Source: Capsaspora owczarzaki ATCC 30864 (lineage: Eukaryota; Opisthokonta; Filasterea). Taken from it: 64,000 bases of DNA. This document shows positions 11,942 to 52,965 of the stretch, one piece after another; position 1 is the stretch's first letter, and every line of letters starts with the position of its first letter. The notes under the pieces were generated by a model, which did not search any database, was not told the DNA's origin, and saw nothing but the letters and a program-made list of their open reading frames with translations. The stretch covers positions 2,154,917 to 2,218,916 of the forward strand of contig NW_011887293.1 in NCBI RefSeq assembly GCF_000151315.2, written 5' to 3'. A program made the position numbers and the translations under genes.

Positions 11942-14900
11942 ATGTTGGCGCAACCAATCACCGCACCTGGCACGCCGTCACCTGTCAAGATGGAAACATC
12001 CTCGCGTCCCGCTCTCCCGCATTACCCCTTGTCGCTGCCTGCTCAGCGCGCTGCGTTGACACCGCCCATGTCGGCGTCCTGCAACGAAGGCGTCTTTGCC
12101 CTCGAAAACGCCGCAGAGGTGCCATTCTCAACCAGCCCGACCCCGTCAGAACCACCATCGCGCCGGCCTTACAATCGAGTCGCATCCAAGTCGGGATTTG
12201 GCTTCCTTGCTCGGTCCAGCTCCCCGGCGGCTCAGATTAGTGCCAGCACGTCGTTGAAGCGCGACACGAGCAGCTCCAGTCTGCACGCCAAGCACAGCAA
12301 CATGCTGCCCCTCGCTTCGCTCTGCCATCGCAAGTCAGTCCTCCAATCCGACATGCACGCCAGTATGAACAGCGCCACCGTCTCTTCTTTTGAGCTTGCG
12401 CCCTCCGCTTCTGCCCCGGCCATGTCCCAGAGCTCTGGCTTGGATGGTGCCCGAGGGCTTTTCCACCACCGTGCGCATCAGCACCGTGCTGACCTCTCAG
12501 CTGGCAGCAACGGCCCTTCCACTGTGAATATTGTCCACCGACTTGCTCATTCACAGCTGAATGGACGGCGGTTTTCTGGAACTCCTATCGCTCGAGTACG
12601 TTTCCGCCCGATTGTTGCAATTTGTTTTTCGTTCTTTGCTTGGTGTCGTTGCTGGTGTTGCTGTTGCTGCTGCTGTTTTTGCGGCTATTGTCCTGGAGGT
12701 TGCTCGCTTTCTCACCTCTTCTACCACCATCTCGTCTGATTCCGATTGCACAGTCACCAAAAGCATTCACTAGCGCCGTTTCCAACCAACTCAATGATTT
12801 GCCAGAGTTGCTTGTACGACTGGAACAATGCGTGGCAACGCGCAACGATGTTGCCAACCGCGCCCATTTGACTGCTCTTGCATCCCATCTTCTGGGGAGC
12901 CGCTTGCCTGCACTTCTTTCACATGCACCATCAGCCCTTGTCACTGCCGACGCAGAACCGTTCTTTGCAAGCCACGCCAATTCGAGCGAATCCACCGGGC
13001 CCTCCATCGCGAGCTGGCTGGTCAATCTTAACAGCCAACCGCTCCCAACGGATGCAGCGGATGAGGCAGCAGTCGCACACGAGCATACGCTCGCACCGTC
13101 GGCCTCCCTGCCCTCGTTCACTGCCGCCACCGAGCGCCGCTTTCATTTCCGACTCTCTCCACACGATGCGTTCGCCATGCTCGGGGGTGTCCGGCTATTA
13201 ACAAGTCTGATTCTGCGCGACGACTTGGCCATTCTGCCACCAAACAGCGTCTCTGAAGTGGGAGGAGGACCCATCCGGCCAACGCTTGTACCAAATCTTG
13301 CTGCTTTGCGCGTGATTAGCGCAGCGCTGGATTTGCTGCGACACGTTTGCATCCAAGTGCCCTCCACAACTGCAGAGCTGGCAAACGACCTGCCCTTGCT
13401 TCGACAGCTCTTCTTGTTGTGCTCGTTCAAGACGACAATTGCCAACGCCACGGCTCTGCTGGAAGAGCTGCTGGCGGCGCGCACCAAAACGTTCGACTTG
13501 TCGCTCATTCCGAACGTGCACCAGCTCATTTCGTCGCTTGCTTTCGACGATTTCACACACTTTATCAAGATTATTGTTCTTCTTGTCTACGATCTGGAAG
13601 ACCACGGTGTGGCTGACGCTGTGCGTGTTTCCTTGGACAAGGAGGTTCGCGCAGTTCAACGCCATTCCTCCATGCTTGCCCCAGTCCGCCAGGTCGATCG
13701 GAACCATGCTCTGCTGCTCGGCAATCCAGATCTTCTAACCCGACTGGTCAAGGTGCTGGACGTTGGCGTGAACGGCGCGTTGCGCGAGCTGTGGCTCGAC
13801 ACGGAAACCGCTCGCCAGGCCGCTGCGCATCGCGAGCGAATGGCTCAGGCTGCCGCGGCCGAAGCTGCAGCGAGTGCCGCTGCTGTTGCTGCTACTGCTG
13901 CCACTGCCGCTGCAGTCGCCTCCAATCCTTTCCGCCCTCTTCCGTCCGTGCCTGCTTTTGCCAGTCCTGCTGATCTCGCGGCCATGGCGGCCTCGGCGGC
14001 CGCCAGCCCTGGCCCGGCCCGCATCTCTCGGCCTCGCCGCCAGCCGTTGCTTGCAGACTCTGACTACACTCCTGCGCAGCAGGTTACCGTGGATCAGGAC
14101 TTTCGTCTGGAGACGTGGCACCGCGCTGTCGCAGGTGCATCAGCACTCTCGTTTTTGCGGCCCAGCGCGCATCCTGTAACACATGCTCCCCCTTGCTCGC
14201 ATGTGACCATTTCGACACTGGCGGAAGTCATTTTTGTCTTCAACCTGCTCTTGGGCAGCAAGCGCAAAGCCGACACGCAGACTCGCCTGGCGCAGCTGGG
14301 CCTTGTGCCAATTCTTTGCAAAGCCTACTCGTTCATGCACTGGCGGCCAATTCCACCCACTCCTGCGCATTCTAGCAATCTTAACGTGGACAACACTACT
14401 GTCAAAGTCCAGTATTTGCGTTTGGTAAAGCATTGGGGCTGGGCGGAACTGCTCGTTGTATGTTTTGCTTGCTTTTTTTTGCTTCAAAGTGTATTTCTCA
14501 CTTATCTTGGTTCTGATGTGGCTCTTTCTTTTGTTGTTGTTGTTGGCTCAGCTTCATGGCATGGCGGATGGCATTCCAGATTCGCGCCACCATCGTTTGT
14601 TTTTTGCTCAAGCAGAGCTGTCTCAAATCCGCACTATTGAACGTCTGTGGCGGGTGCAGCGGGGACCCGAGCAGTTTGCCAAGTAAGGCGTCTGTTGAAT
14701 TTGTTGTTGAGTTTTGCCGAGGTTGACAAAAATCACTGTTGACACTCAAAAACAAAACAATTACTTGTCATGATTTGCTTGCTTGTAGAGCCACTTTCTG
14801 CCGAGAACCAGTCGGCCTGGTCAAGCTGATGATGCATGAGTTGTGCTCCAACGAAACGTTGGATGCGTCAATGAAGTTCCAATTCGTGGTCGCCATCGAA

Positions 14901-15611
14901 AGTCACATTCGCGGTGCGACAAGTGCCGAGCGAGCACTTTTGGCCACCAGCGACTTTTTCCAGTTTTTGCTGGACGAATTGCTTTCGCCCGAGTTCAAGA
15001 CCAGCTCCATCCTGCAGAGCTTGTTCGATCTGCTTGGCGAGCTGATTCGATTCTGCCCCGTGCTCTTGATGCAGTTCTCTGACTTGTGCACCGACGAAGC
15101 GTTTGCTCGGCTGCTGCATGTCATCAGCCTGCATCTGGTTGACGCAAACGTATTCTTGCGCAGCATCATGATGACCATTAGCCATTACTCCCAGCACCAC
15201 CGCACGACGGCTGAAAGCGACTGCACGAGCTACATTCCCGAGCGATGCAAGTTTGCCGCCTTCTTCGGCGACCCCGCGAACGTCATGTGGCTGTGTGCGC
15301 AGCTAATGCTCGTGATTAGCATTGACGAGCTCAGCCAGGAGAACATTTGCTGTCTCAACAGCGCACTGGTCATTTTCGTGTTTGCCTACCGTGAGGGTCA
15401 ACTGGCATCCTTTGTCGAGCGCCTGTACGCCGTGTGCAATCTCGTCAATGGCGATGCGGCAGCCACCTTTGCCAACTTTGCCCAGCTGCTGGTCTTCTGG
15501 AAGCAGCACTACCTGAAGCGGCACCGCGACCTGTATCAGCTTGCTGCCGGGTCCAGGATTAGTGTGGATGACTGGATGACAGTTGTCAATGTTGTTGCCT
15601 CGTTTTGTTGA
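11942..15611 (+). CDS. TRPC4AP/TRUSS-like scaffold protein (DUF3689 family)
   Basis: I read four exons: 11942-12595, 12754-14457, 14552-14682 and 14789-15611, giving 1,103 residues. The first ~220 residues are Ser/Pro/Ala-rich and look disordered. The rest is helical and armadillo-like, with an Ala-rich insert around residues 590-650. The C-terminal third carries blocks I associate with TRPC4AP: LVDANVFLRSIMMTISHYS, SQENICCLNSALVIFVFAYR and LLVFWKQHYLKRHRDLY. In animals TRPC4AP acts as a substrate receptor for CUL4-DDB1 ligase and in TNF-receptor and TRPC channel signalling. Only the family link is inferred here, from remembered similarity. The next gene starts 1.16 kb downstream on the same strand. 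Confidence 0.65.
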
Positions 15612-16774
15612 TCTGCTTTTGGATTTTATACATTTTTTTATCTTTTATTTATTTTTTATTTTTATTTTTTATTTTTTTTTTTCGATTAACACTTGTTTGC
15701 AATGCCGACGCATTCGCTTTCAAAATCGTCCAATCCCAGCGATACAAAACGCTGGTGTGTCACACGGTTATGCCAGCTGTCGTTCACTCACTCACTCACT
15801 CACTCACTCGCTCACTCACTCACTCACTCACTCACTCACTCGCTCACTCACTCACTCACTCTCACTCTCTCACGCACTCACTCACACCAAAAGGTCGTTC
15901 TGGTTTGGAACATGATTTCTGTAAATCGAGCTATCACTCTTCTGTTTCTTTCTGTTTGTTTTTGTGGTTTGCCTATTTTTTCCCTATTTTTTCGGTTCGT
16001 TCCTTTTTCCTTGTTTGTTACCGTCTTGCGTCCTTTCATTTCTTGCAACAGCACACCGAACATTGCCAGACCCCCGCATCTCAACACTCAACTGCTATCA
16101 CTACCTCCAACCTGACTCTTGACCGTGTGAAAGGAACAGCAAGCGCATGCGGTAGGGGGGGGGGCTTTCTTACAGAAAAACAAAAGTACACGCCCGATAA
16201 GCATGTCGACTACTGTGGGGTAGCATGCAGTGCCTCGCATGTGAATCGCGCGCTGTCCTTGCTATGCAAGCGCACAGATTTGGATACTGAGTGACGCTGA
16301 CAATGGCGTGAGAGAGAGCGAGAGAGACAGTGAGAGCGAGAGAGAGAGAGAGAAACGAAAAGTGCTCTCCTGAGCAAAACTAGAAAAAAATCGTGCCGTC
16401 AAACCGTATTTTGTTGTGGGCTTTGGATTGGGGCAGTTGAAGGGAGGCGGGAGCAGGAGCACGCTCTTCAGCGAGAGTGCGAAAGAGGGAGCGAGCGTGC
16501 GAGAGTCAAGACAAAGCAAAACGCTCATCCTACATTCCTGCTTGGCGAGTTTGTTCGCTTTGTTTGTTCTTTGTGGTTTTTCTTTCTTTTGTTTTTTTTT
16601 TTTTCTTTTTTTTGTTTTTTTGTGGTTTTTTTTTGTGGTTTTTTTTTTTTTTTGGTTGTTTGTTTGTTTGGTTTCGCTTTTCTTGCTTCTTCCCTTCCGG
16701 CTTGAGATGATGCTGAGCTGACTATTTCTATTTCATTCAAACAGGAAGCAAACTCACAACGACCAAGTCCAAAA
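15612..16774. other. Intergenic region rich in simple repeats
   Basis: It contains T-rich runs (15630-15685, 16588-16655), a CACT tetranucleotide array, a GA tract (16308-16352) and a G-run (16156-16164). No gene is visible. The last ~100 bases look like the leader of the receptor gene; an acceptor-like CAAACAG at 16738-16744 suggests a leader intron. Confidence 0.5.
15783..15887. repeat. (CACT)n microsatellite
   Basis: About 100 bases of tandem CACT/CTCA units with a few single-base variants (CTCG) and a short CTCT slip near the end. It lies in non-coding DNA between two + strand genes. Confidence 0.95.
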
Positions 16775-19700
16775 ATGGCGAATCTGACGCTTTTGTGGGG
16801 AGGCATCGTCGTCGTTTTGCTCATGGCCTGCCTTGCCCCTCAAGGCACACTGGGCGACATCCACAATCTCCCAACACTCTGGACAAACGCGGCCAAGACC
16901 ACCCGTCCGCAACTTGCTGGTCGCAGTGTCGTGTTGGCGCCTGACGGTGGCCGAAACGCCATCTCAAATGCTTACGAATACAGCATGGGGCTCAATTCCC
17001 AGCTGCCCGATGTCTATCATAACGAGATCATGATTCGTTACACTCAAGAGTACCTCGCCAACGCGGGTGCAACCGTCTTCATGACACGCGAGCGCTGGTT
17101 TGGCACGTCCGACGAGCAGATTCTGGACGATCAATCGCCTGCCAACTGCATCAAAACTGGTGGATGGACTTCCTACGGCATTGGGTTCCTCGGTTACCAC
17201 TCGTACGTATTTGGCGACCTGAATGCAGAAACAGCCGTCGCAGCTTTCGTGACCACCCTTGCCGCCGATGGGTACTATCCCGTGTACATTCGTGGTTTGG
17301 GCGACGGCCAAAACCGTGCCTCTCGCACGCTCATTCGAATCTTCCATTCTGGTGGCACAACTACCCTGTACATGAATCAAAACATGTACAGCAGGCAGTG
17401 GATGTATGCCGGTCGCTACTACTTTACCAAGACAGGCTTTCGCGTCGAAGTTTCCAACAAGCTTGACTTTGCCGTCGACGCTGGCAGATGCGTCATTGTG
17501 GATGCAGTTCGCGTCGGTTGCGGTTCCCTTGGCGGCTATCCTCGCTTCCACTACGGCACGTCCAGCTTTTTGACCTACATGAACTACACTGTCAGCACGA
17601 GCTCGGCAACAGCGATGGCTGATTTCAGCAAGCAGATGATTCAAGGCGATCTGGAAACTGCCAACTGGCAAAATTGGGCGCTTTTCTATCTTGTGAGCAC
17701 CGCTACTGGCGACTCTTCAATTCGTGGCACCCAGGATTTCAGCTACAGCAACGTAAGTGCATGAAACGGATTGTGTGCTTTTCGCGGTACTCTTTGATTA
17801 ATGATTTTGCTCGATAGGGTCGTACCTCGTCATACACGGGCATCACCAGTACGGCGATCTACAACTCCTCATTGCAGGCCGCTTCGGATAGCTTCTGCGA
17901 CGCCATTCATGCGGCCGCAGTTTCAACGGGTCTTGTAGACAAAGCCAAGGACCTTCATCAATGGCCGCCGCTTGATTCGTCCTCACGAATGCCCACCATG
18001 ATGGCCATTCCTTATTACGCCTCCAACAATGCAGACATGCTACTGGCTCAGTCCGAAGCGGGTCGCGAGAATGTACGTACGCTGTGGTCTTTGCTTTCAT
18101 GAGCTAGTGCATTGAATCTCACACAAATCTTCTTCCTCCATCAAACAGCTCGGGCGCGCATACTACAAGGGCATTGCCAAGTACTTTTCATCGACCGCCA
18201 CCATCATTCCGCTCCCTGTCAACTACCTGCACACCATCAACCAAGGCGGCAACGTGGTTCGAGTCTGCTGGCGCCAACCTGACGACACCCAAGAGTCCAC
18301 TGACGCTGCGACCGCGTTCAAGATTTACCGGTCTACCGATGGACGCGGATGGGACGATGGAGTTATCGTCGCCGCTTTTACGTACCTTAACAGCTTGTGC
18401 TACGACGTTACATCTCTGACAGTCGGGCAAGTCTACTTTTTCAAGGTTGCCGGTCTCAATGCAGGAGGCGAAGCGTTGACCAAATGGACGGCAGCGGCGC
18501 GCGTGACCGACCCTGCTGTTGGTGTCACTCGTCCGCCAATTGTCATCGTCGACTGCTTTGTCGAAGGCTTTGTGCACACTTCTACCAACATCGAGGGTCG
18601 GTACACGCGGGAGTATGTGGTCGAGCACGCCCTGTCGATTGCTGGAGCCGGTTACTCGTTTGATTCTGCATCTGCAGACATCTTTTCTGAGTCCCAATGG
18701 GTTACCACCCACCTAGCAATGTACAAGGCGGTTGTCTGGGCGTCGGGTGATACGGCCGCCAACATCAATGTCTTCCCTGCTGTTGCGCAAACCGCCATCA
18801 ACTCGTGGATTGCAGGTGCCTCCTCTGCAAGCCCTCGCTCGCTTTTCGTCAGTGGCTCGAATGTCGCTGCTGGCCTTAGTGCTGCGGGCAGTACCAGCCT
18901 CACCTTCCTCAACAGTCAACTCAAGTCCACCTTTGTCAACGCCAATGCAAACACTTTCGTTGTTCGCCCGAACGCTGGATTCACCATGAGCGGCACTGTG
19001 GGCTTCAACAGCATTGTGGTGCTTGGGAACCCATACGCTGTCAGCTCGCCGGATCAGATCGGCACAGCAGGCACAGGAACAGCGGCGCTGTACTACGGCC
19101 CTTCGTCTGGGACGAATGTCGCTGGTGTCAGCTCACGCAGCACGGCAGGATATTATGCTTCCTTCTTGCTCGGCTTCCCTTTTGAAACGATCAACTCGCG
19201 AGACGAGCGCGACAAGTTGATGGCTTCGATCCTGTCCACCATCATGTTTGCAGCTCCTGACTTGCCCTTGGCGCTGCCGTCCGTCAGCTCGGCTGCCAGC
19301 ATGGCCACGCAAGCTTCTGTTGCTTCCCGAAGCTCTGCTTCGATTGCAACCACCGTGTCTGCAAGCGTTGCCTCAATTGCTTCGATTGCATCCACAGTCT
19401 CCGCCACAGTTGCTTCGGCATCGTCTGCATCAGTTGCCTCAGAATCGTCTGCATCAGTTGCCTCAGAGTCGTCTGCATCAATTGCCTCAGCATCATCAGC
19501 GTCAATCGCCTCGGCATCGTCAGCGTCGGAAGCGTCGGAAGCGTCCCGTGCCTCAGCTTCTGCCTCTGTGGCCTCCGAAGCGTCAGCGTCAGCCACTCAA
19601 ACCCCGCAATACTCGTGCCACGTTGAATGTCAAGGCGGCTGCACTGGCCCAGCGGACACGGAATGCGTCTCCTGCGTGCACTTCAAGTTTGGCGCCCGAT

Positions 19701-20173
19701 GCGTCGCCTCCTGCCCGATCGACTATGCAAGCAAGGCTGATCATGTTTGCGCGCCCGTCCCCAATGATTCCTTGCCCATCGGAGCGATTGCTGGCGGTGC
19801 TGGCGGCGGTGTCGTCCTGCTGTTGCTTCTTTTGCTCATCCTGCTTCTTGTCGTTCGTCGCCGTCGCAGCAAACCTGCGCCGAACGCCGAAGCCCCTGCC
19901 CCGCAGTCCACGATGCTCTTTGCCAACCCGCTGCTCGATCATGGCGCTGAAATGGATGGCGTCTATGATACGCTGAATGCCCCTGGGCCCGCCAGAATCA
20001 GCAGCCCCGACTATGAGAAAGCGATGCTCGCGGCGGAGTACGAGGCACCGCACCATCCTGGTCAGGAACAGGAGAGTACTTACGATACACTCGGAGCCAG
20101 CGGAATGGCTCCGTTGCCACCACCGACTGTTAGCGGCATTACGTATGCCAGCATCTCTGCGGCTGATAATTGA
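16775..20173 (+). CDS. Single-pass receptor with amidase-like/golvesin, FN3 and GATase-like ectodomain
   Basis: Three exons (16775-17752, 17818-18072, 18149-20173) encode 1,085 residues. A signal peptide covers ~1-28. An N-acetylmuramoyl-L-alanine amidase-type fold (VVLAPDGG, HNEIMIRYTQEYL, FMTRER) is interrupted by a golvesin-like beta domain (~140-260). An FN3-like domain (~425-520) and a glutamine-amidotransferase-like domain (SLFVSGSNVA, LLGFPFETI, ~525-770) follow. This is the order I know from bacterial xanthan-lyase/golvesin proteins. Next come a Ser/Ala/Glu low-complexity stalk (~790-895), a Cys-rich furin-like segment (~900-945), a membrane helix (~957-980) with an RRRR stop, and a ~100-residue tail. 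Tail motifs VYDTL, STYDTL and ITYASI resemble phosphotyrosine sites. The metal-binding His of the usual GHGG is replaced (PDGG), so catalysis is doubtful. Confidence 0.8.
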
Positions 20174-20481
20174 AATGAGATCTGATTGTAGGCGTTTTGT
20201 CCGGTCGTGGCAGCAAATGATCATGCTTTGGTGCTGTGTGCTTCGACCACATTGTGTGATGCATTGGTCGTGATAAAAATCCAGATCCATCCTACCAAAA
20301 TGTCCCATTGCATCACAAGAACGTTCAAAGACATTTGTAATAGACACAGAAACCGCACACACACACACGCAGAATCAAACAAGACAAAAAATAGACAGCA
20401 AAACTACAAAGATAACAACAAGAATTTTTTAAAAATCAAAAATGGCGCTGCGATGCGATGCGATGCGATCAGCGAACGCGC
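20174..20481. other. Tail-to-tail spacer, nothing recognised
   Basis: This holds the 3' ends of the receptor (+) and the RapGAP gene (-). It has a CA tract (20358-20370), A-rich sequence, and a GATGC tandem (20451-20467) just before the RapGAP stop codon. Confidence 0.6.
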
Positions 20482-23400
20482 TTAATCGTTGAGAGCAACA
20501 CAAGCCACGCTCGACACAACCGCCTCGTTGGCAGTGTTCTGGTTGATGGTGTAACTGTTCGCAACAAAGATTTGCTTCGTTGAGTTACGCACGGTGATGA
20601 GCTGCGTGGATTGAAGCGGAATGACTTGAATGAGGTTGCCGTTCACCAACGTGCGAACTTCAATGCTATTCGTTGAAAAGCCCAAGATATTTGGGAAGGC
20701 ATAAACTGTTCAAACGAAAACATTGGGGTTTGGTGCGGAAGCAAGGAAAACGAAAGACACGTGAGTATTTTCACTTTATCATGGAATGAAAAGCGAGCAC
20801 CAGAAGCCATTCAACTTACCAACAAAATTGGGCATAATGGTCCACCGAACAATCAAAGATCGAGTGCTTTGGCCTCGCCTGTTGACAAAGACACCCAGGT
20901 CTATTGTTCGAGCAAGAGAAACGAAAAAAGCAGAAAGTCAATCAGCGCGAACAATCGACGAGCAACGCAACCAACATCTGTCTTGAGAAACTCACTGTTG
21001 TAGCAGACAAAGAACTCATCACTGCCGAGATGCAAAACATCTACCGGCCTCATGTCTGTCCCGGTGGCATGAAGAACATCTACGCTGGCGTCGCTCGTGT
21101 CGTCCAGCGAGACAAGCGCAAAGTGGTCGGAGAAGCCGAGCACTGCAGATTGTCCGCTGATGCCAAGCGTGACGCAAGTGTCGGAAAGCCCGATTGCCTA
21201 ATTTTCGGGTCACAAGAAGCAACGCAAACACATCAAAAGGTCAGCTATTTGCCATCCCAGAGGCATCACCCACTTGCATGACCATTCACAACCAAAAAAA
21301 AAAAAAAAAAAGCAATGAAAGCATACCAGTTGTCGCTGGAAAATTCGCGACGATGCCTGCCAGCGATAGACAAGCAGCGTCTTCTTCACAGACACGCAGA
21401 GCCGGAAGGACGTGGTGGCGTCCGCGGACGATTCCCAAAACGGGTCGAGCGCGAAAATGTTGCAATTTTTCGTGTCCTCAAGCTGGCACTCAAAGATGGC
21501 CGGCTGGGACGAAAGCGCACGCAACGAGACTTGCTTGAGGCCGGCAATGTCGTAGTACACAATGTAGCTGGTGCCCGGCGACGCAGTTGGGGCGGCACAG
21601 GCAACCAGCAGGTTGAGCTCTGCAATCACCGAAATCTGCGTAAACGAACGCTCAACATGCAGAGGCAGCTTGAACATTTCGGGTTGGCCGGGATTGGTAG
21701 AGCCAGGAATGCTCACAAACGGGACGTAGATGTAAAGACCGGCATCTGTGCCGAGCACCAATGCCTCACCAAGCTTGGCGCCGCACTGAATGACGCGCGG
21801 GAGCAGTGCTGCACAGATGGCTGGCTTGTACAGCCGCCCGGATGGGCCAGCTGATGTCGACGACAGTGTCAAGCCAGAAAGATCCGTGTTCGAAGCGGAA
21901 GGGGACGTGGATTCCGAGAACGAGGAGCGCTCCATCACGGGACTTGTAGGAGGCGAAATAACGGGTGCCATGTTCGTCACGGAAAGAGACGGGAAGCTTG
22001 AGGGAGAAGCAGAAGAACTACCTGCGGCAGGAGTAAAGAATGTCTCGAGCAAGGGCAGCTTGCGTCGCAAACTGCTTCCAGTGGAGCTCGCTTTCGAGTT
22101 GTTCAAGCCAGAGCCGACCACAGCTGCCATCGAGGAGAGCGACTTGGAGCTGTTGACGGACACAAGCATACCCGATGAGGTGGCTCGATCTTCAATGCCC
22201 CTGATGAGCTGGGTGAGCGTTCGATGCTGGCGCTGCTTGAACGCCGGCGAAGCGAGCGTCGCCGTCTCGCCGTTAATCAACTTGGTGAGCAGGAACTCTC
22301 GCAGCTCGACCTCGGAGGTGAAGCGAGGCGGCGATGGCAGCGCGGGTCCGTACGGAGGGACGGATGTTTTGGAGGCAACGTTCAGCAAAAACTCGTACTT
22401 GTTGGTCAACTCGTTAAAGACAGGCGAGACCACCGCAAAAACATGCAGGTAGTGCGATGCCACGCTGCCGGGGTCGAAAGCATTGACTTCCATTGACAAG
22501 GAGGGTTGAGAGCTAGCTCCTCGTCGAACAGAGGCGGGAGACTGGGCAGGCAAGTCGTCGACGCTCTCGGCAGTGGTCGGAACAACGCCCTCGGGCAGGT
22601 CTTCAAACACAATGGCACAAATGTCGTTGCCAATATGACGCTTTCGCTCGAGCTGTTGCTTGTCACCCTCTGCGAACGGCAGAAGGGTCGAGACGTGGAA
22701 CATGATTTCGTAATTGCTAAACCTCGTGTACACAGAGTGCGTGCCAGTCGTGTTGTCTTTGACGTCAAGCCCAGCGCGGAAGTACGGCCAGCCTTTGAGC
22801 TCCACCTTGTCGCCGAGCACCTTCAAAAAGTCGTCAAAGCGCGGCGACCCTTCGCGGTTGGAGAACATGTGCTCCTCGTGAACCTGGTGGGCTTTCTTGT
22901 AGAGCACACCAAACTTGAGCTGCCGTGTTGTAATGTAATCTTCGATCTGGAGCAATTCGCGCGAGATGTCTCCGTCAATCTGCTTGAGTTTGCACGAGCT
23001 AAGCGACGGCTGAATGGCGCGGAGCAGATGGGTCGGCGTCAGCGACTGACGGTCACGCACGGCAACAGTCAGATGCTCCAGGCCCGTTGTCAGCCACAGA
23101 ATGAGACGATACTGCGTGTACGGGTTGACTGGCAAACCCTCGGTTTGCGAGGACACGAGCTGCTCGCGGCGGACGGAGAGAACAAATGTACCCACCCCGT
23201 CGCTTTGGCTTCCCAGATAGTTTTGGTGTTCGCGTGTATTGAAATGCTTGGCAAACCAGGCCGTGGTCGATTCGTCGTTTTCCACGAGCGGGCGCTGAAT
23301 GCCGTACTGGGAGTGATTGTTGCCGTCCTCAACGTTGAACTGGTCGCCGGGCGTTATCATGAGACATCCGTTCGAATTGCTGGTGCTGCTGAGTTGGGTG

Positions 23401-26400
23401 TTGCTAGTACCACCCACGCTGCGCTGTTGCTGGGTTGAAGATGTCGGGAACTTGCGCGTGTACAGCCCAGAAACAGAGCGTTGGCGAGCGGCAATCATGC
23501 CATCGTCAGGATCAACATGGTGCTCAGTCAGGTAAAACCGGATGTGATGGCCTTGGTGACGCTGCAGCAACTCGTTGATTCGCTCAGCATCGTCCAAGCG
23601 TCGCTCCGACACGTGATCGAGCACCAAATCCAAGCAGAAAATATCTGCAGAAGCGCGAGGAATGTCGTGCTTGCCCACAGCAGCGCGCAGCAAGCTGGCG
23701 GCCGTGGTTGTGGCAGAAATCGCAAAGGTGCGGAAGGAGAAATCGCGCCGATAGACCCGCACGGCGGGAGGAGTGTCGGCTCCGCCACCACTGACGCCAC
23801 TACTGGCTTTCGTTGCAGACGCCGATGCGGCACTCGGGGATGACACTGCAGGGGCTGATTTAGATGTGGAAGCAAGTTCGGTGCCGCGTGCACTTGGGCT
23901 GGAGGAAAAAGCCGCAGGCGGAGCTGGGGCCACCAAACGGGCAGCAGCCTCTGCTCCAGCTCGAGTATCTTCAAACACGGGCGGCGGTGGCACCGTGTTG
24001 GAATTTCGCTCGCCATTGGTTGCGTTGTCGCTCACGCTGAGATCTTGCGATGAACCGCGGCTTGGAGTGCGCAGGGTCGCAGGCGCGGTTGCGGACGTTG
24101 CTGCAGTTGTGAGAGCGGCGAGCTGCGAGACGGGAATGGCACCTAGCACATCTCCGGAAGGCGTCCGCGAGCGAGGACGCGAGACTTCCGCCAACGGGGT
24201 ACCCGAGGTTGTTCGAGAACGAGGTTGTCGCACCACAGCGGCGCGGATGGGCTCGATGATGACGTCGTCACTCAAGTCGCTCACTGGGGTAAGCGTCATC
24301 CTCTTGGCCTTTTTGAGAGCGGCGCGCATGAGCCACGGAATCTCTTCGTCATCCATCTTGCGCGATACGGTGCCAGATGTCTCGACGAGGCAATAGGTCT
24401 TCGGATCAATGTCGCCTTTGTTTGCCTTGATCAATGCCAGCTTGACAACGTCTCCGACCGTGTTTACTTTGAGCACCTTGAAAATGGTATAAGGGTGGTC
24501 GGGTGTGACGCCATAAATGCAGACAACGCCTTCATCTGGAGTGATGGACAAGGTTCGGGACCGCCCCAGTCGCTGCTGCTGTTGTAGTTGTTGTAGTTGT
24601 TGTTGTTGTTGTTGTTGTTGCGGTTGCGCAGAATCTGAAGGCGAAGTGCTGCCTGCTTCCAGAGCAGCTTCGCTCGCGTTCGCATCGTTCGCGTATGCGT
24701 CAGAGTCAGAGTCAGCCGCAGATAACACAGAGTCTCGGGGACTGGACGGCGTTTTTGACGAAATGGAAGTGGGCAGGCCGAGGAGAGCGGTTGAGGTCAA
24801 GTCGCTCGGCTTGGAGATGGACTCGTCAGAACCCGAATCAGAGTCCAGTGGGCGAATGGCGTCCAAATGTGTGTCATCGACAGTCTTGGAGTGGCGGGCA
24901 GCAATCTTGGCAGCGGCTTCGGCACGTTGTGCGGCCTCGTGCTCGTCGACCCGCGCAAGTTGAGCCGGAGTCGCGACAGCAAGCACCTGCCAGGAATCTC
25001 GAGGACGCAGGAACAGCCGCTTGCTTCGTTCCAAGCATTGAGCAGCAGTGAGAGGAATTTCGGCATCGTCGATGACGCGTTCGCCATCCATGCCGGTCGT
25101 CTCTACCAAACAGTACTTGCTCGGATTGGCTAGGACATTCTTGGCACGAATAAGCGCCAGGCGCACAACATCGCGAGCAGTGCTGATGCTCAGCACGGTA
25201 ATGTTGCTGATCGCAGTTGGCTCTTTGGAAACGTCGTAGATGCACAGCAAGCTTTCCGCGTCCACAATGGCAGAGATTGCACGTCGTTTCCGGAGCGCGC
25301 TCGAGCTGCGAGAAGCGACCGTAACGGCCGGCTCTGGATTGGAACCGCTGCTCGGCTTGGCGCTGCCATCTTGAATGATGACGGGCGCCGTCTCGATCGA
25401 CACGCGTCGCCGTGGCGATGCAGTCCCGGAAGCAAAGGCAGCCGCGTTTGCGGGCGCCATCATCTCGGAGACGGTGTCGTTCACGGATGCAGCAATGGCT
25501 GCAGAGTCATCAGCGCGGGAATCGATCAGGGCAGCAGCAGTAGTCGCGGCGGTTGCCGACACATCTCCTCCACCCAACGCACCGTCTTGTGGCTGTGATT
25601 GCGTGTTGTCCTGCTGCTGTAGCGTGCCAGCAGCAGCTTGTAGAGGGATTGCATCAGAAACGGTTGTAGATTCATGAGAAGGAGCAATCGCAGGAGACTC
25701 GAGTTGAGAAGCCGAATGTGCACTCGAAACGCGAAGTGGTGGCGGTGGGGGTGCGACGCCGTCTTCGCTGCCAGCGCTGCTCAGCGAAGTAAGAGACGCC
25801 GCTTCATTCAATGGAGGGGCGGCAATTGCCTCTGACGAGCTCGCGCGAGAGGCGTGCTCAAGACTATGTGAGCTGGCGTGCAAGCTCCCACGGCTTGCAT
25901 CGTCCATGCCTTCGCTCGAATCGCTCCCGCCACTGACACTCCCGTCCACGCGCTCATGAGACAAGCTCAGTGGAGGAGTGGACAAGTGGGCAGACTCGGA
26001 CTGCTGCGGGAAGACAGGCTCGAGTTTCGCCAGCAAGGCATTTGCACGCGCGAGATCTTGCTCCAGCTGGTTGGCTCGATCGGCCAAGAGCAAGCGCTCT
26101 CGTGTGGACGCTTCTGCCGCTGCTTCCGCTAGCACGGCACGCGCTTCGAGAGCTGCGATGCGAGCAAGAAACTCGTCCTGCTGCTGGCGAACGCGCTGCT
26201 CGGATGCCTCAGCCGCCTCGGCGATGACGGCCGCAGCAGCGTCGCGGGCCGCCCGAATTGTTGCAGCCTCTGCTCCCTTCGATTCCGCCTCGGCCTCCTT
26301 CAACTGCAGTTCGAGAGCCGCAACACGTGCAAGGTGCTCGGACTCTTGCTGCCGTGCGCGCGATTGCTGCTGCTCAAACTCGGTTTCTTTCGCTGCACGT

Positions 26401-28971
26401 TCGACACGGCGTGCCTCGAGCATGAACGCCAATTCTTCACGATGCCGGGCATCCTGCGCTTGAAGCTCACTGGCACGACGCGTGTGGGCTTCCACCAGTT
26501 GACGCTTCAAATCTGCAATTTCCTGCTCCAAGTCGCCGTTGTTGGCTCCGGAAATGCTGCTGCTAGTGCTGACACTGTTTCGACGCTGGTCGAGCTGGTC
26601 AATCGACGGCATCGAGTTGAGCGACGGGGTGGAACCCAGTGGGAGCTTGAACCCGTCTGACGACGCTGCAGCGTCCGCCATCGCCTGGTGTTGCTCCAGC
26701 TGCAAGTCCTTCCAGCGGCGTGCCTCTGTCTTGGCCTCGTCGCGCTCTTGCTCGAGCTCGCGAATCTTCTCCAGTAAATCGGACTCGGTGGTGGACTGCG
26801 ACCGCCTCCGACCAACCTGGAGCGACAAGGAGGAGTTTTGGGGTGACAGGCCGGGAACCTCATCGGATTGCTCGGCCGTGAGATCGGCAGAATCAGACGC
26901 TGGGAAGGTCGATCCGGAGCCTGACGAACTGCGCGAGGCAATCGCTGGTCGCTGGCGGTATCCTGAAAACGAGGCGTTACTCCGTAGGGTTGAACCAGCG
27001 GCCGAATTGACCTCAAACGACTGCGAGCGAGTCAGAGAAGCAGATACGCCAGGTGGTGCCGTCATTGGCTTGTTGACAAAGCGCTGGTGCAAGCACGCCA
27101 CGTAAATCATCATGGATGTCTCGTCAATGTGCGACTCGGACGAGCACACGTCATTTGCGTCCAGCAAATCTGGAACTCCGGCTAGTGTGAGCGCCTCCAA
27201 TGCAGCCTGCGTGTTTTGTACCTCGTTGGTCTGAACATGAGAGTTGAAGAGAGAGTCAGAGTGAGAAAGTTGAACCGAATCGTCATAAACATGCATGGCA
27301 AACAGACAAAAAAACACACACACAAAAGGTAATTCCCAAGAAGCAACGCCGCTCCTACGTACTTTATCCGTTGGATAGTTGTATCCCTCGCAAAATCGAC
27401 TGGCCAAAGCGCATAGGGGCAAACCGGTGCCAAAGCTGCGACCAAAACAATTGAAACACAGCAATCAGCGCACCTTCACCGCACCTTCACCGCACCTTCA
27501 CCGCACACAATAGGGTTGGAGATTCAGACAATCCAAAACCCAACCAACAATCACCACCAACAAGACAAGCTGTCTGACGACGCACCTGCGATCAAAGTTG
27601 GCAATTTTCAGACTTTCGTCGACCGACTCGGCAACTGATTTGCACCAAGCAAGCAGCACGTATTTTACTCGCGCTCCGGACGGTTCGCCAACGACTACAC
27701 AACTAAACTGATAGCGCCGCAAGATGGCGTAGACAATGGCCATGACTTGCTTCTTGTTGCCGAGCTCAATGTCTTCAGCGCTCCATTTGAGCGCCGTTTG
27801 TGCAACCTGCTGCAGAGTCTGTAAACCCATGTGCAAGTTGTCGATACGATGCCACCGCCGTTCGGGCACCACGTGAAAGGTCAACCGGGTGCCAGTCAGA
27901 ATGGACAAGAGCCAGCAGATTTTGGTGCCGTCCCTGCGTCCAGTCAACGAATGAGTTGTTGATACAGCAACAGCGGCAGCAGCAGCAGCAGCAACTTGTT
28001 AGACACCGAAATGCAGTTTGTGGGGCGTTCCTTACCGGAAGTCAGCGTCCATGTTTCGAACACCATCAACGTCTACCTTCGCGAGGTGGTGGTTAACCCA
28101 TCGAATAAATGTCTGTGTGTGATGCAGAGCAAGAGGGGAGGTTTTTGTGAGCACCGGCCAAACAAGCATTGACAAACAACAAAAACAAACACAAAAACCT
28201 CATAAAATAATAAATAAGAGTAAATAATAACAAATAGAATAAGAATAAATAACCGTAAATAATAAAAGAATAAATAAACAGATGAAGAGTCAATGTTCGG
28301 CTCCATCCCCGGGTCCGCCACCGCTCTTCCGTCCCCCCCCCGTCCCGCGAACTCGTCCAACACTGAGCTTCAAGTCAAAGAGAGGAGGACAAGAAGGCGG
28401 GGTGTCGAATCAGCGTCACTGAGGTCAATGAAGCGTGAATGGATCAAAAAAAAAAAAAGACAAAGTACATCCATCCCTTCCCATCCTCTCCCCCACACAC
28501 ACACAGCCGAATGGGTCGCACGCAATCACAGCGTCATGTCGTGATGTGCACGCTTTTCCACAGTTGCTCGGTTGGCGGTGGACGGGGAGAACAACGGAAG
28601 GAGCGGTTGGACCCTGCAAACTCACTCAACTCACTCCCCTCCCCTCCTCGCGCGGTTTCGCTCTCGTTGTTAGCTGCAGCTGTGGCGGCGGCGGCGGCTT
28701 GTTGTGGTTGCTTGCATTTTACCTTCTCTTGAGTGGTCGCTTGCTGGAGTCGCGTCTCTGGCGCAAACCGCTTCCGAGGCGAGCCCGCGACAACGGCGGA
28801 TGTAGCAGCAGCAGCAGCAGCAGGAAAGCTTGTCGCTGAGCCTGGAGGCGACAGACCCGTCAGCCCCGCCTCGCCGCCATTGCTGAGACTAGTGCTGCTC
28901 ACGCTGCCAGCGCGCAAGGAGGCCGATGGGACTGCAGCGCTGCCGGTGCTGCTGCTCTCGAGGGCAGACAT
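20482..28971 (-). CDS. Tandem CH, coiled-coil, RA, RapGAP and CNH domain protein
   Basis: Eight exons: 28971-28723, 28112-28036, 27933-27586, 27435-27363, 27230-21327, 21197-20996, 20900-20820 and 20705-20482; all phases join, giving 2,385 residues. CH1 begins at ~84 (TFIRWVNHHLA, DGTKICWLLSILTG); CH2 (VLLAWCKSV, SFGTGLPLCALASRF) ends near 301. A coiled coil spans ~400-665. Two RA domains lie at ~900-1000 (LLCIYDVSKE) and ~1140-1230 (VVCIYGVTPD). A divergent RBD/RA follows (~1405-1485). RapGAP (~1540-1930) keeps the catalytic Asn-thumb context RHIGNDICAIVF (~1781). A CNH domain runs from ~2040 to the end (NLGVFVNRRG, PNILGFSTNSIEVR). The RapGAP-CNH half resembles animal GARNL3. An actin-linked Rap/Ras inactivator is the natural inference. 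Confidence 0.9.
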
Positions 28972-50327: not shown

Positions 50328-50870
50328 CTCCTCTACACACTCCATCCATCAGCTCTGTTTTTCCCGCCTCTCCCCGACTCTAGTGCCCGAGTATAGAAAT
50401 GGGAGCGTGGCGTCTGTGTTTTTTTTTTTTTTCCCCGTTCTCATGATCGCCCCGCATCAGCTTCGATTGTCTCTCCTTGTTGCGCTCTCCTTCCCCAGGC
50501 GTTTCCGCGTCTCTCTCTGGATGTGTTGAACGCCGCCTCCCCATCGCGTGTGGGCAGGTGCAGCATCCATCGGCGCACACCAAAACCACCATGCTTTTTT
50601 TTTTTTTGACTTTTCAAAAAGTCACGGTCGCCGTTTTTTTTTTATTATTTTTTATTATTTTTTATTATTTTTTTTTCCCTCCTCATCTGCATTTGGATCT
50701 CAGATCTCGATGCGAACGACTGCGTATTTGTGCCATCGGATGCGAACGACCTTGTCACGTGCAATCAGCTTGGAACAGATCTGCCATCGTGCGTGTCGCT
50801 CCGAGCAGAGGGACGCTTCCTGGGGCAGTGAAACAACGCACGCCTGACTGAAGAAGAACACGAAAACCAA

Positions 50871-50901
<31 letters not shown>

Positions 50902-51067
50902 GCTTGTTTCACTTTGCGCACAGTTTGCAAGCCTTCCCCTTCCTCTTTCAACACTCCAACACACGACTCATTCACTCGAAACATCCCTTCTTGCCTCCTT
51001 ATTCCTCGCGCTCACTCGAAACATCCCGCACCTTGTCGAAAAAAAAAAACAACAACCAACAAAACAG
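49798..51067. other. Leader and promoter region of PEPCK
   Basis: It contains many A/T runs (49920-49940, 50028-50040, 50190-50215, 50869-50901), a (CA)n tract (50290-50325) and pyrimidine-rich DNA. The start exon of PEPCK should be here. Two candidates are CACCATGTTCAG before a GTACGC donor (50001-50018) and an ATG at 50710 opening an Arg-rich, presequence-like frame with possible phase-1 donors. Neither is proven. Confidence 0.45.
50290..50325. repeat. (CA)n microsatellite
   Basis: About 18 uninterrupted CA units in the PEPCK leader region. Confidence 0.95.
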
Positions 51068-52965
51068 CCAAGAACCTCCATCGTACTGCCTACACGGCTA
51101 CCATCACAGCTCGCCGCCTGTATGCGCTGCCTGCCAACGCCATCAACGGCGCTGCGCTGAACAAGCACCCCAAGCTGAAGCAGTGGGTCGAGGACAAGGC
51201 CAAGTTCTTCAAGGCCGACAACGTGCACGTCATTTCCGGCACTGAGGCCGAGAACAAGGATTTGATCAAAATCCTCGAAAAGTCGGGCACCATCGAGCAG
51301 CTCAACCCCAAGCTCCGCCCCAACAGCTTCCTTGCGCGCACCGACCCCAAGGACGTTGCTCGCGCTGAGGACTCGACCTTCATTTGCTCCAAGGACAAGA
51401 AGGACGCCGGCCCGACCAACAACTGGGTCAACCCCTCCGAGATGCGCCAGCGCCTCGACAAGCTGTTCGCCGGCACCATGCGCGGCCGCACCATGTACGT
51501 CATCCCGTACTCGATGGGCCCCATCGGCTCGCCCATCTCCCGCATTGGTGTTGAGGTCACCGACTCGCCCTACGTGGCCGTCAGCATGCGCATCATGACC
51601 CGCGTTGGCCAGCCCGTCCTCGACGTGCTCGGCGCCAACGGCGAGTTTGTCCCCTGCGTCCACTCGATCGGTGCCCCGCTTGAGGCTGGCGCCAAGGACG
51701 TCCCGTGGCCGTGCAACACCAAGGAGCGCGCCATTGTCCACTTCCCCGAGACCCGCGAGATCTGGTCGTTCGGCTCTGGCTATGGTGGCAACTCGCTCCT
51801 CGGCAAGAAGTGCTTCGCTCTGCGCATTGCATCCGTCATTGCCCGCGACGAGGGCTGGCTCGCCGAACACATGCTCATTCTCGGCATCACCGACCCGAAG
51901 GGCAACAAGAAGTACATTGCTGCCGCCTTCCCCTCCGCCTGCGGCAAGACCAACCTTGCCATGCTTCAGCCGACCATCCCCGGATGGAAGGTTGAGTGCG
52001 TCGGCGACGACATTGCCTGGATGAAGATTGGCGCTGACGGCACCCTCCGCGCCATCAACCCCGAAAACGGCTTCTTTGGCGTCGCCCCCGGCACCTCGAT
52101 GAAGACCAACCCGAACGCCATGCGCTCGATCGAGAAGAACGCCTTCTTCACCAACGTTGCCAAGACCGCCGACGGCGACGTCTGGTGGGAAGAGCTCTCC
52201 AAGGAGCCCCCGACCGGCACCCTGACCTCGTGGCTCGGCAAGCCATGGACTGCCGCCAGCGCCAAGACCGACGGCCCGGCCGCCCACCCCAACTCGCGCT
52301 TCACCGCCCCGACCGTGCAGTGCCCCATTATCGACCCCAAGTGGAACGACCCCGAGGGTGTCCCGATCTCGGCTATTGTCTTTGGCGGCCGTCGCCCCAA
52401 CCTCGTGCCGCTCGTCTATGAGGCCAACAACTGGCAACACGGCTCCTTCATTGGCTCGGCCGTCTCCTCGGAGAAGACCGCCGCTGCTGAGGGCGACCTT
52501 GGCGTCCTCCGCCACGACCCCTTCGCCATGCTGCCCTTCTGCGGCTACAACATGGGCGACTACTTTGGCCACTGGCTCAGCGTCGGTGCCAAGGCCAAGG
52601 ATGCCTCCAAGCTTCCCAAATTCTTCCACGTTAACTGGTTCCGCCAAGAGAACGGCAAGTTCCTCTGGCCCGGCTTTGGCGAGAACTCGCGTGTTCTCAA
52701 GTGGATTTTCCAGCGCACCAACAACGAGAACGTTGCTCGCCAGACCCCCATCGGTCTCGTCCCCGCCGAGGGCGCCCTCGACACCACCGGCCTTGACGTC
52801 AAGCCCGAGGTCATGAAGAAGCTTCTCGAGGTCAACCCTGCTGGCTGGCTCAACGAGGTCGCTGCTCTGCGCAAGTACTATGCCACCTTTGGCGAGGCTC
52901 TTCCCAAGGGCATCAAGGCCGAGCTCGACGCCCTCGAGACGCGCCTCAAGGCTGCGTCCAAGTAA
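51068..52965 (+). CDS. PCK: Phosphoenolpyruvate carboxykinase, GTP-type (start exon unresolved)
   Basis: This enzyme converts oxaloacetate and GTP to phosphoenolpyruvate and CO2, the key step of gluconeogenesis. From 51068 the frame encodes ~631 residues, full length for the family. Motifs include [37 protein letters not shown], the kinase-1a loop and reactive Cys [34 protein letters not shown] and NWFRQ. The last is near the C-terminal GTP-binding region. No ATG occurs in frame before the conserved NPSEMRQRL, so the start lies in an upstream exon. The first residues ([17 protein letters not shown]) look like part of a mitochondrial presequence. Codon use is strongly C-ending, unlike neighbouring genes, which suggests high expression. 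Confidence 0.93.

Follow-up and report, generated by a model that had tools for sequence, protein, structure and literature searches.

An inactivated bacterial-type amidase as the putative ligand-binding ectodomain of a Capsaspora receptor family

The gene CAOG_01854 of Capsaspora owczarzaki ATCC 30864, a filasterean according to the taxonomy database, raises the question of how an outer region of bacterial type came to stand on a eukaryotic receptor, and of what it might do there. The gene lies in a stretch of 64,000 nucleotides, called the window below, which corresponds to G000:C2:2154917-2218916 of the 27.46-Mb genome assembly. Its three exons join by GT-AG splicing into 1085 codons without a stop, and the encoded protein consists, in order, of a signal peptide, an Amidase_3 fold with a golvesin/CBM35-like insert, an FN3 domain, a GATase-like domain, a Ser/Ala stalk, a Cys-rich knob, a membrane helix, and a tail in which Yxx(L/I) motifs occur three times. 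With its signal peptide, ectodomain, one membrane helix, and tail, it has the single-pass receptor layout that a preliminary description of this DNA had proposed.

The reading favored here, with moderate confidence, is that a secreted bacterial protein was captured, inactivated, and put to use as a Capsaspora receptor family, in which ligand binding would lead to tyrosine-based signaling. This reading builds on the computed anatomy, bacterial kinship, active-site loss, introns, single clade, kinase-bearing paralogs, and homogenized ectodomain.

Bacterial kinship and active-site loss

When residues 28-780 were used as a query in a protein search, the seven matches comprised four Capsaspora proteins, one from Planctomycetaceae, and two without an organism name. 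One match, P0005, is 29% identical over 97% of this query. A profile search returned 10 matches, namely three from Capsaspora, four that combine golvesin, Amidase_3, and fn3 domains (one of them from Deltaproteobacteria), and three weak fibronectin-type hits. Similarly, a search from a clade-B paralog (see below) recovered four Capsaspora proteins and two labeled as amidases by their source. Among organism-named matches in all of these protein searches, whose collection includes EukProt, there were no eukaryotes other than Capsaspora; each search scored about 8000 candidates sharing short words with the query, a procedure that distant, oddly sized, or unnamed eukaryotic relatives could escape.

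A scan of 84,980 prokaryote genomes, in which the absence of eukaryotes is by construction, yielded 269 stretches that fit the pattern, 227 of which encode ectodomain relatives. The best 80 of these 227 were taken into the alignment described below; all 80 bear bacterial titles, and the best loci belong to Bacteroidota (Chitinophagaceae and Saprospiraceae). The ectodomain is bacterial in type, as the preliminary description had claimed from the domain order, and both the protein searches and the 227 prokaryote loci bear this out. That description had allowed that all nearest relatives might prove to be eukaryotic; the sole eukaryote named among them is Capsaspora itself. Origin from another eukaryote was rejected, since no other named eukaryote was found within the limits of the word-based candidates.

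Among the closest known systems are secreted bacterial proteins (Bacteroidota, Planctomycetota, Verrucomicrobiota, and Sumerlaeota) that have the same Amidase_3, golvesin, FN3, and GATase-like order and the same folds, with 22-29% identity to the Capsaspora ectodomain, mostly across about 640-750 residues. They differ in keeping their zinc site (78/80), and the bacterial-type protein P0005 ends in a Por_Secre_tail C-terminus instead of a receptor tail. The four positions that form the active site in these relatives lie in the window as follows.

16946..16948, + strand: first zinc His site (GHG), Gly58 in the window protein
17006..17008, + strand: zinc Glu site (VED), Pro78 in the window protein
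17693..17695, + strand: second zinc His site (HTNA), Val307 in the window protein
18007..18009, + strand: catalytic Glu site (VE[LV]AFHD), Ile390 in the window protein

In the alignment, the His, Glu, His, and Glu residues are all present in 78 of the 80 bacterial loci, and the remaining two, which lack the N-terminal half, keep the last two residues. All four are likewise retained in P0005, P0006, P0008, P0010, and P0011. Across the Capsaspora family, the first His is lost at 9/9 loci (eight taken from the alignment and L074 read from a separate sequence piece, SPAMGW), the second His at 9/9, the catalytic Glu at 9/9, and the zinc Glu at 8/9, with L075 keeping it. The replacements at the first site differ (PDGG; PALG and PAMG; PMYG), which shows further drift after the active site was lost. 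The preliminary description had noticed the missing zinc-site His (PDGG for GHGG), and the loss proves to extend to all four residues (zinc ligands and catalytic Glu) of the window protein, which is not classed as an amidase enzyme. An active amidase was rejected from this table; judged by its residues, the ectodomain is a dead enzyme, and it probably serves as a binding domain.

The features of the gene, apart from the active-site positions above, are listed here by position.

16775..17752, + strand: exon 1, residues 1-326, covering the signal peptide, the dead amidase's N-terminal half, and the golvesin insert
17120..17515, + strand: Golvesin_C / Xly-CBD domain, residues 116-247, an insertion in the amidase fold, itself of CBM35-like fold
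17753..17817, + strand: intron 1, 65 bp, GT-AG, phase 0; counterpart modeled in 8/9 family loci
17818..18072, + strand: exon 2, residues 327-411, covering the dead amidase's C-terminal part
18073..18148, + strand: intron 2, 76 bp, GT-AG, phase 0; modeled directly before LGR[AT] in 9/9 family loci
18149..20173, + strand: exon 3, residues 412-1085 with the stop codon, running from FN3 through the GATase-like domain, stalk, Cys-rich knob, and membrane helix to the tail
18221..18475, + strand: FN3 domain, residues 436-520
18533..19249, + strand: GATase1/ThuA-like alpha/beta domain, about residues 540-778
19256..19594, + strand: Ser/Ala-rich stalk, repetitive; homology with the kinase-bearing paralog L069 (C9) stops inside it, at 19536
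19568..19750, + strand: Furin-like / growth-factor-receptor Cys-rich knob, residues 885-945 (profile E 6.9e-9)
19784..19855, + strand: transmembrane helix followed by RRRR, about residues 957-980; also helix 581-600 of the public model P0003 (964-983 here)
19868..20170, + strand: cytoplasmic tail, residues 985-1085, with Y1017 (GVYDTL), Y1033, Y1042, Y1056 (STYDTL), and Y1077 (ITYASI)

The golvesin domain is recognized by its profile at 55.2 bits, above the cut-off of 31.6. The Amidase_3 profile stays under its cut-off with the window protein (E 7.9e-4) and passes it with the paralog P0004 (3.2e-10); fold comparison finds the amidase fold in the window protein as well. In the same comparison, CBM35/36 and xanthan-lyase binding domains, whose ligands are in general polysaccharides, come out as similar to the golvesin insert. 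Long Foldseek alignments to Eph ectodomains had poor root-mean-square deviations and were given no weight. A Pfam profile scan found no kinase domain in the window protein, and its sole NCBIfam match, to MYXO-CTERM at the membrane helix, stays below threshold. The public model of CAOG_01854 (P0003) is identical (100%) to the window protein across the aligned part and starts at residue 384; the 383 residues that it lacks include the golvesin domain and the signal peptide as well as most of the amidase. The public model of CAOG_01892 (P0001) starts at the counterpart of window residue 71.

One family with two kinds of signaling end

A protein search of the genome revealed nine family loci on five contigs (the window gene and L068-L075), and nine golvesin matches were also obtained. 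In a quick tree, the nine form one clade with a support of 100 in the Shimodaira-Hasegawa-like approximate likelihood ratio test (SH-aLRT). Clade A holds the window gene, L068, and L069, and then L075 (support 90), and clade B holds L070-L074. The tree was built from 73 of 96 aligned rows, with 23 bacterial loci left out, and its Capsaspora stem is long (1.16), which carries a warning of long-branch attraction; it supports no position for the family among bacteria and, by the same token, no donor phylum. Within the searches made, the family is found only in Capsaspora. Intron 1 is missing in L075 and has a non-consensus modeled donor in L071. The introns otherwise stand at shared places in the family loci, in keeping with the earlier suggestion, drawn from two introns in one gene, that the ectodomain is domesticated and is not contamination.

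UniRef already names one paralog "Golvesin/Xly CBD-like." A literature search, with subscription papers largely outside its scope, found nothing that links Capsaspora with golvesin or names four of the family's locus tags. Some members have peculiar architectures: L072 (4200-6200) and L073 (4000-7400) carry stalks of degenerate Ser/Ala/Val-rich repeats, roughly 750 and 1200 residues long, which are possible recombination joints. In L070 (C13), a 1.1-kb block of the ectodomain is duplicated internally, and the public-model tail is without tyrosines.

The preliminary description had guessed at a link to tyrosine kinases, and the link is more direct than guessed: a Pfam scan of the paralogs, which left out L073, finds tyrosine kinase domains in two of them, L069 (9.9e-47) and L074 (6.6e-47). 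Both kinases have the VA[IV]K, HRDLAARN, and DFG motifs, with C-lobe sequence downstream. L069 (C9, CAOG_05635) has a one-base frameshift near L069:3706, followed by the stalk, a membrane helix, and the kinase domain. Its annotation, 690 aa long, is cut by this frameshift, and the next frame is open into the kinase domain (L069:3649-5625); a host receptor tyrosine kinase at CAOG_05635 is either missing from the annotation or broken. L074 (G000:C19:146000-152800) has its one-base frameshift near the N-terminus.

The two kinase pieces are 48% identical to each other. That of L069 reaches 65-66% identity with the nearest of the other host kinases, and that of L074 is 72-93% identical to at least 39 other loci, with 150 of 286 candidates scored. 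The two kinases belong to different subfamilies, so that at least two types of kinase have become attached to this ectodomain. One of the at least 39 loci, L156, has a different ectodomain, and its 2.8 kb matches L074 only from the juxtamembrane region onward. The at least 39 loci with L074-like kinases, at least one of which has a wholly different ectodomain, look like the product of a receptor tyrosine kinase burst in which outer parts were exchanged. The kinase-bearing paralogs are thus close in their kinase domains to the other Capsaspora receptor tyrosine kinases, whereas the window gene has no kinase domain and has an ectodomain of bacterial type. These host kinases are reportedly the subject of work by Suga et al. 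in 2012.

The window gene and L069 share the following block.

16626..19536, + strand: block common with L069, 97.05% identity, ending inside the repetitive stalk

No other match was found when window positions 13001-22000 were compared with 6.8 kb of the L069 locus at E 1e-5. L068 matches the window at 16762-19523 (95.4%) and again at 19420-20086 (91.6%). Between the window gene and L068, synonymous divergence (dS) in five parts of the ectodomain is 0.10, 0.02, 0.02, 0.04, and 0.03, and it is 0.01 across the Cys-rich knob plus membrane helix. It reaches 0.25 in the stalk, 0.77 in the signal peptide, and 0.33 in the tail, where nonsynonymous divergence (dN) is 0.17. Between the window gene and L069, dS across the ectodomain is 0.03-0.07. 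Because these regional differences lie at synonymous sites, they point to gene conversion or recent cassette exchange, and not to selection on the protein. The ectodomains are homogenized, and the tails have diverged.

Mammalian paired receptors such as Siglec-11 and Siglec-16 offer a parallel, since in one account (PMC5701461) their ectodomains are likewise homogenized by gene conversion while their signaling ends differ. One partner of such pairs is often non-functional in humans, according to the same account, which may be compared with the frameshifted Capsaspora kinase copies. The mammalian examples differ in being Ig-like lectins of animals, and activating versus inhibitory roles in Capsaspora are only putative. 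A paired system could accordingly be imagined, in which the captured ectodomain would be shared by receptors with their own kinase and by receptors whose tails, resembling immunoreceptor tyrosine-based inhibitory motifs (ITIMs), would be able to recruit an SHP-like phosphatase, near-identity being kept by gene conversion that ends in the stalk. In the family, the ectodomains are homogenized and the ends differ, yet both kinase copies are frameshifted, and we regard this proposal as unlikely. If true, paired tyrosine-based sensing of bacteria either predates animals or was invented independently.

Tail motifs, mechanism, and competing readings

All three phosphotyrosine-type motifs reported earlier for the tail (VYDTL, STYDTL, and ITYASI) are present, and the last two fit the strict ITIM-like pattern [SIVL]xYxx[LIV]. 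The proportion of tail tyrosines in Yxx[LIVM] motifs is 3/5 in the window protein (shuffle p 0.030), 3/4 in L068 (0.015), 4/4 in L071 (0.0002), and 5/6 in L075 (0.0004). For the three deeply separate tails (window, L071, and L075), the excess has a Fisher p of 5e-7. The juxtamembrane part of L074 has the motif at 2/5 tyrosines (shuffle p 0.23), and that of L069 lay outside the test. Strict ITIM-like motifs number two in the window tail (p 0.005), three in L075 (0.0004), and none in L074. A block of the form FANPL[LF]...YD[TAS]L recurs in the window protein, L071, and L075, and in L070 without the tyrosine. In the paralogs, where the conservation of tail tyrosines raised in the preliminary description could be followed, it held in part: Yxx[LIVM] motifs occur in four of the seven kinase-less loci and are absent from three. 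The tails of the window protein and L068 are identical over their first 40 residues and at 28/56 of the next aligned ones; tyrosine is kept at three of four distal columns, and the lost one, Y1033, is not in a motif. Other Capsaspora receptors, among them L067 and L053 (a kinase receptor), have comparable tails, as judged from 14 of 28 loci. The YxxL/I motifs are 39 and 21 residues apart, and an immunoreceptor tyrosine-based activation motif (ITAM), which requires a spacing of 6-12 residues, was rejected by eye.

The host has machinery that could read such a tail, as had been anticipated, including 34 SH2 matches in profile scans, many tyrosine kinases, and 16 matches to protein tyrosine phosphatases (PTPs). 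At G000:C13:292722-294496, two SH2 matches, one of them partial and with stops, precede a PTP match of the same strand by 0.8-1.0 kb, which is the layout of SHP. Receptor PTPs give the PTP piece its best score (1.2e-78) and SHP-2 a weaker one (5e-53), so that an SHP-like reading rests on the layout. Another candidate, the tandem SH2 of L006, we take to resemble PLC-gamma and not SHP, and it was rejected.

A plausible course of events can be outlined. A complete secreted bacterial protein (Amidase_3 with its golvesin/CBM35-like insert, FN3, and GATase-like domain) would have been acquired, probably once; the two zinc His residues and the catalytic Glu would have been lost before the family spread; and the captured ectodomain would have been joined to a host receptor chassis of Ser/Ala stalk, Cys-rich knob, and membrane helix. 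With its CBM-like insert and its empty amidase cleft, the ectodomain may bind a ligand from the cell wall or another glycan ligand. Ligand binding might then cluster the receptors, upon which a tyrosine kinase, either that of a kinase-bearing paralog whose ectodomain is nearly identical or some other kinase of the host, would phosphorylate the YxxL/I tail, and the phosphorylated tail would recruit SH2 proteins. The carbohydrate-binding relatives of the insert make a polysaccharide the best-guess ligand; peptidoglycan would be a guess by analogy with the amidase fold.

The closest analog is PGRP-LC of insects, also a single-pass membrane receptor derived from a dead peptidoglycan amidase, whose outer amidase is without zinc ligands. 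Peptidoglycan recognition proteins (PGRPs) have an Amidase_2 fold, whereas the Capsaspora receptors have Amidase_3 outside and tyrosine motifs or kinases inside; no Amidase_2 (PF01510) match was found in the Capsaspora genome at E 0.001, and the family does not qualify as PGRP. Receptors made from dead amidases are already known in principle, and what is new here is the other fold and the other signaling end. Capsaspora may have evolved a means of bacterial sensing of its own. If so, a lineage next to animals made a receptor ectodomain from a bacterial cell-wall enzyme and wired it to tyrosine-kinase signaling, by a route independent of the animal PGRP route. Two questions would also become open to testing, namely whether the tyrosine-kinase receptors of holozoans detected bacteria before they took on cell-cell signaling, and how ectodomains swap between receptor chassis.

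Several points weigh against this account of capture and signaling. Both kinase-bearing loci carry a one-base frameshift in the ectodomain and so may be pseudogenes or sequence errors, and the modeled tails of L070, L072, and L073, three of the seven kinase-less loci, have no tyrosine. Strict ITIM-like motifs amount to only one in L068 (shuffle p 0.11) and none in L071. The distal motif Y and +3 positions are kept at 4/4 between the window protein and L068, which against the background of 28/56 gives a p of only 0.056. YxxL/I also fits the sorting signals bound by clathrin adaptors. Furthermore, the paralog gene models come from GT-AG choice and homology, and the ligand, the tail phosphorylation, and the expression of the receptor are all putative.

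A possible, if somewhat unlikely, alternative is that the protein is a module for adhesion or self-recognition, whose old carbohydrate-binding surface acts on glycans from host or snail, for instance when Capsaspora aggregates, and is not a bacterial sensor. The polysaccharide ligands typical of the insert's relatives would suit this role, as would the surface display that the long stalks of L072 and L073 allow. Nothing specific speaks against it, although the retention of the whole amidase fold together with its insert would be hard to account for if binding by the insert were all that counted. Less well supported, and in our judgment unlikely, is the proposal that the YxxL/I motifs bind endocytic adaptors and that the protein is a scavenger receptor internalizing bacterial polymer as food. 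Capsaspora is phagotrophic, and YDTL and YASI fit the YxxPhi rule, but the kinase-bearing paralogs share the ectodomain type, some copies of the motif are as far as about 97 residues away from the membrane, and an ITIM-type residue stands at -2 in the two distal window motifs, though not in all paralogs.

That the motifs arose by chance, in a low-complexity tail that gains and loses them, seems improbable: the three tyrosine-free tails, the window tail's own shuffle p of 0.03, and the distal p of 0.056 would permit it, whereas the proportions in L071 and L075 and the recurrent FANPL[LF]...YD[TAS]L block argue otherwise. Bacterial contamination or a mis-joined assembly, which the bacterial or unnamed origin of all ectodomain relatives outside Capsaspora might suggest, is refuted for practical purposes by introns at shared places, by nine loci on five contigs, by an exon that the stalk and Cys-rich knob share with the GATase-like domain, and by the same fusion type in several loci.

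Elsewhere in the window, a large open frame with Rap_GAP, Ras-association, and CNH domains (21210-27464, - strand) adjoins the receptor gene, and a GTP-type phosphoenolpyruvate carboxykinase is encoded by a single open frame at 50848-52965 on the + strand.
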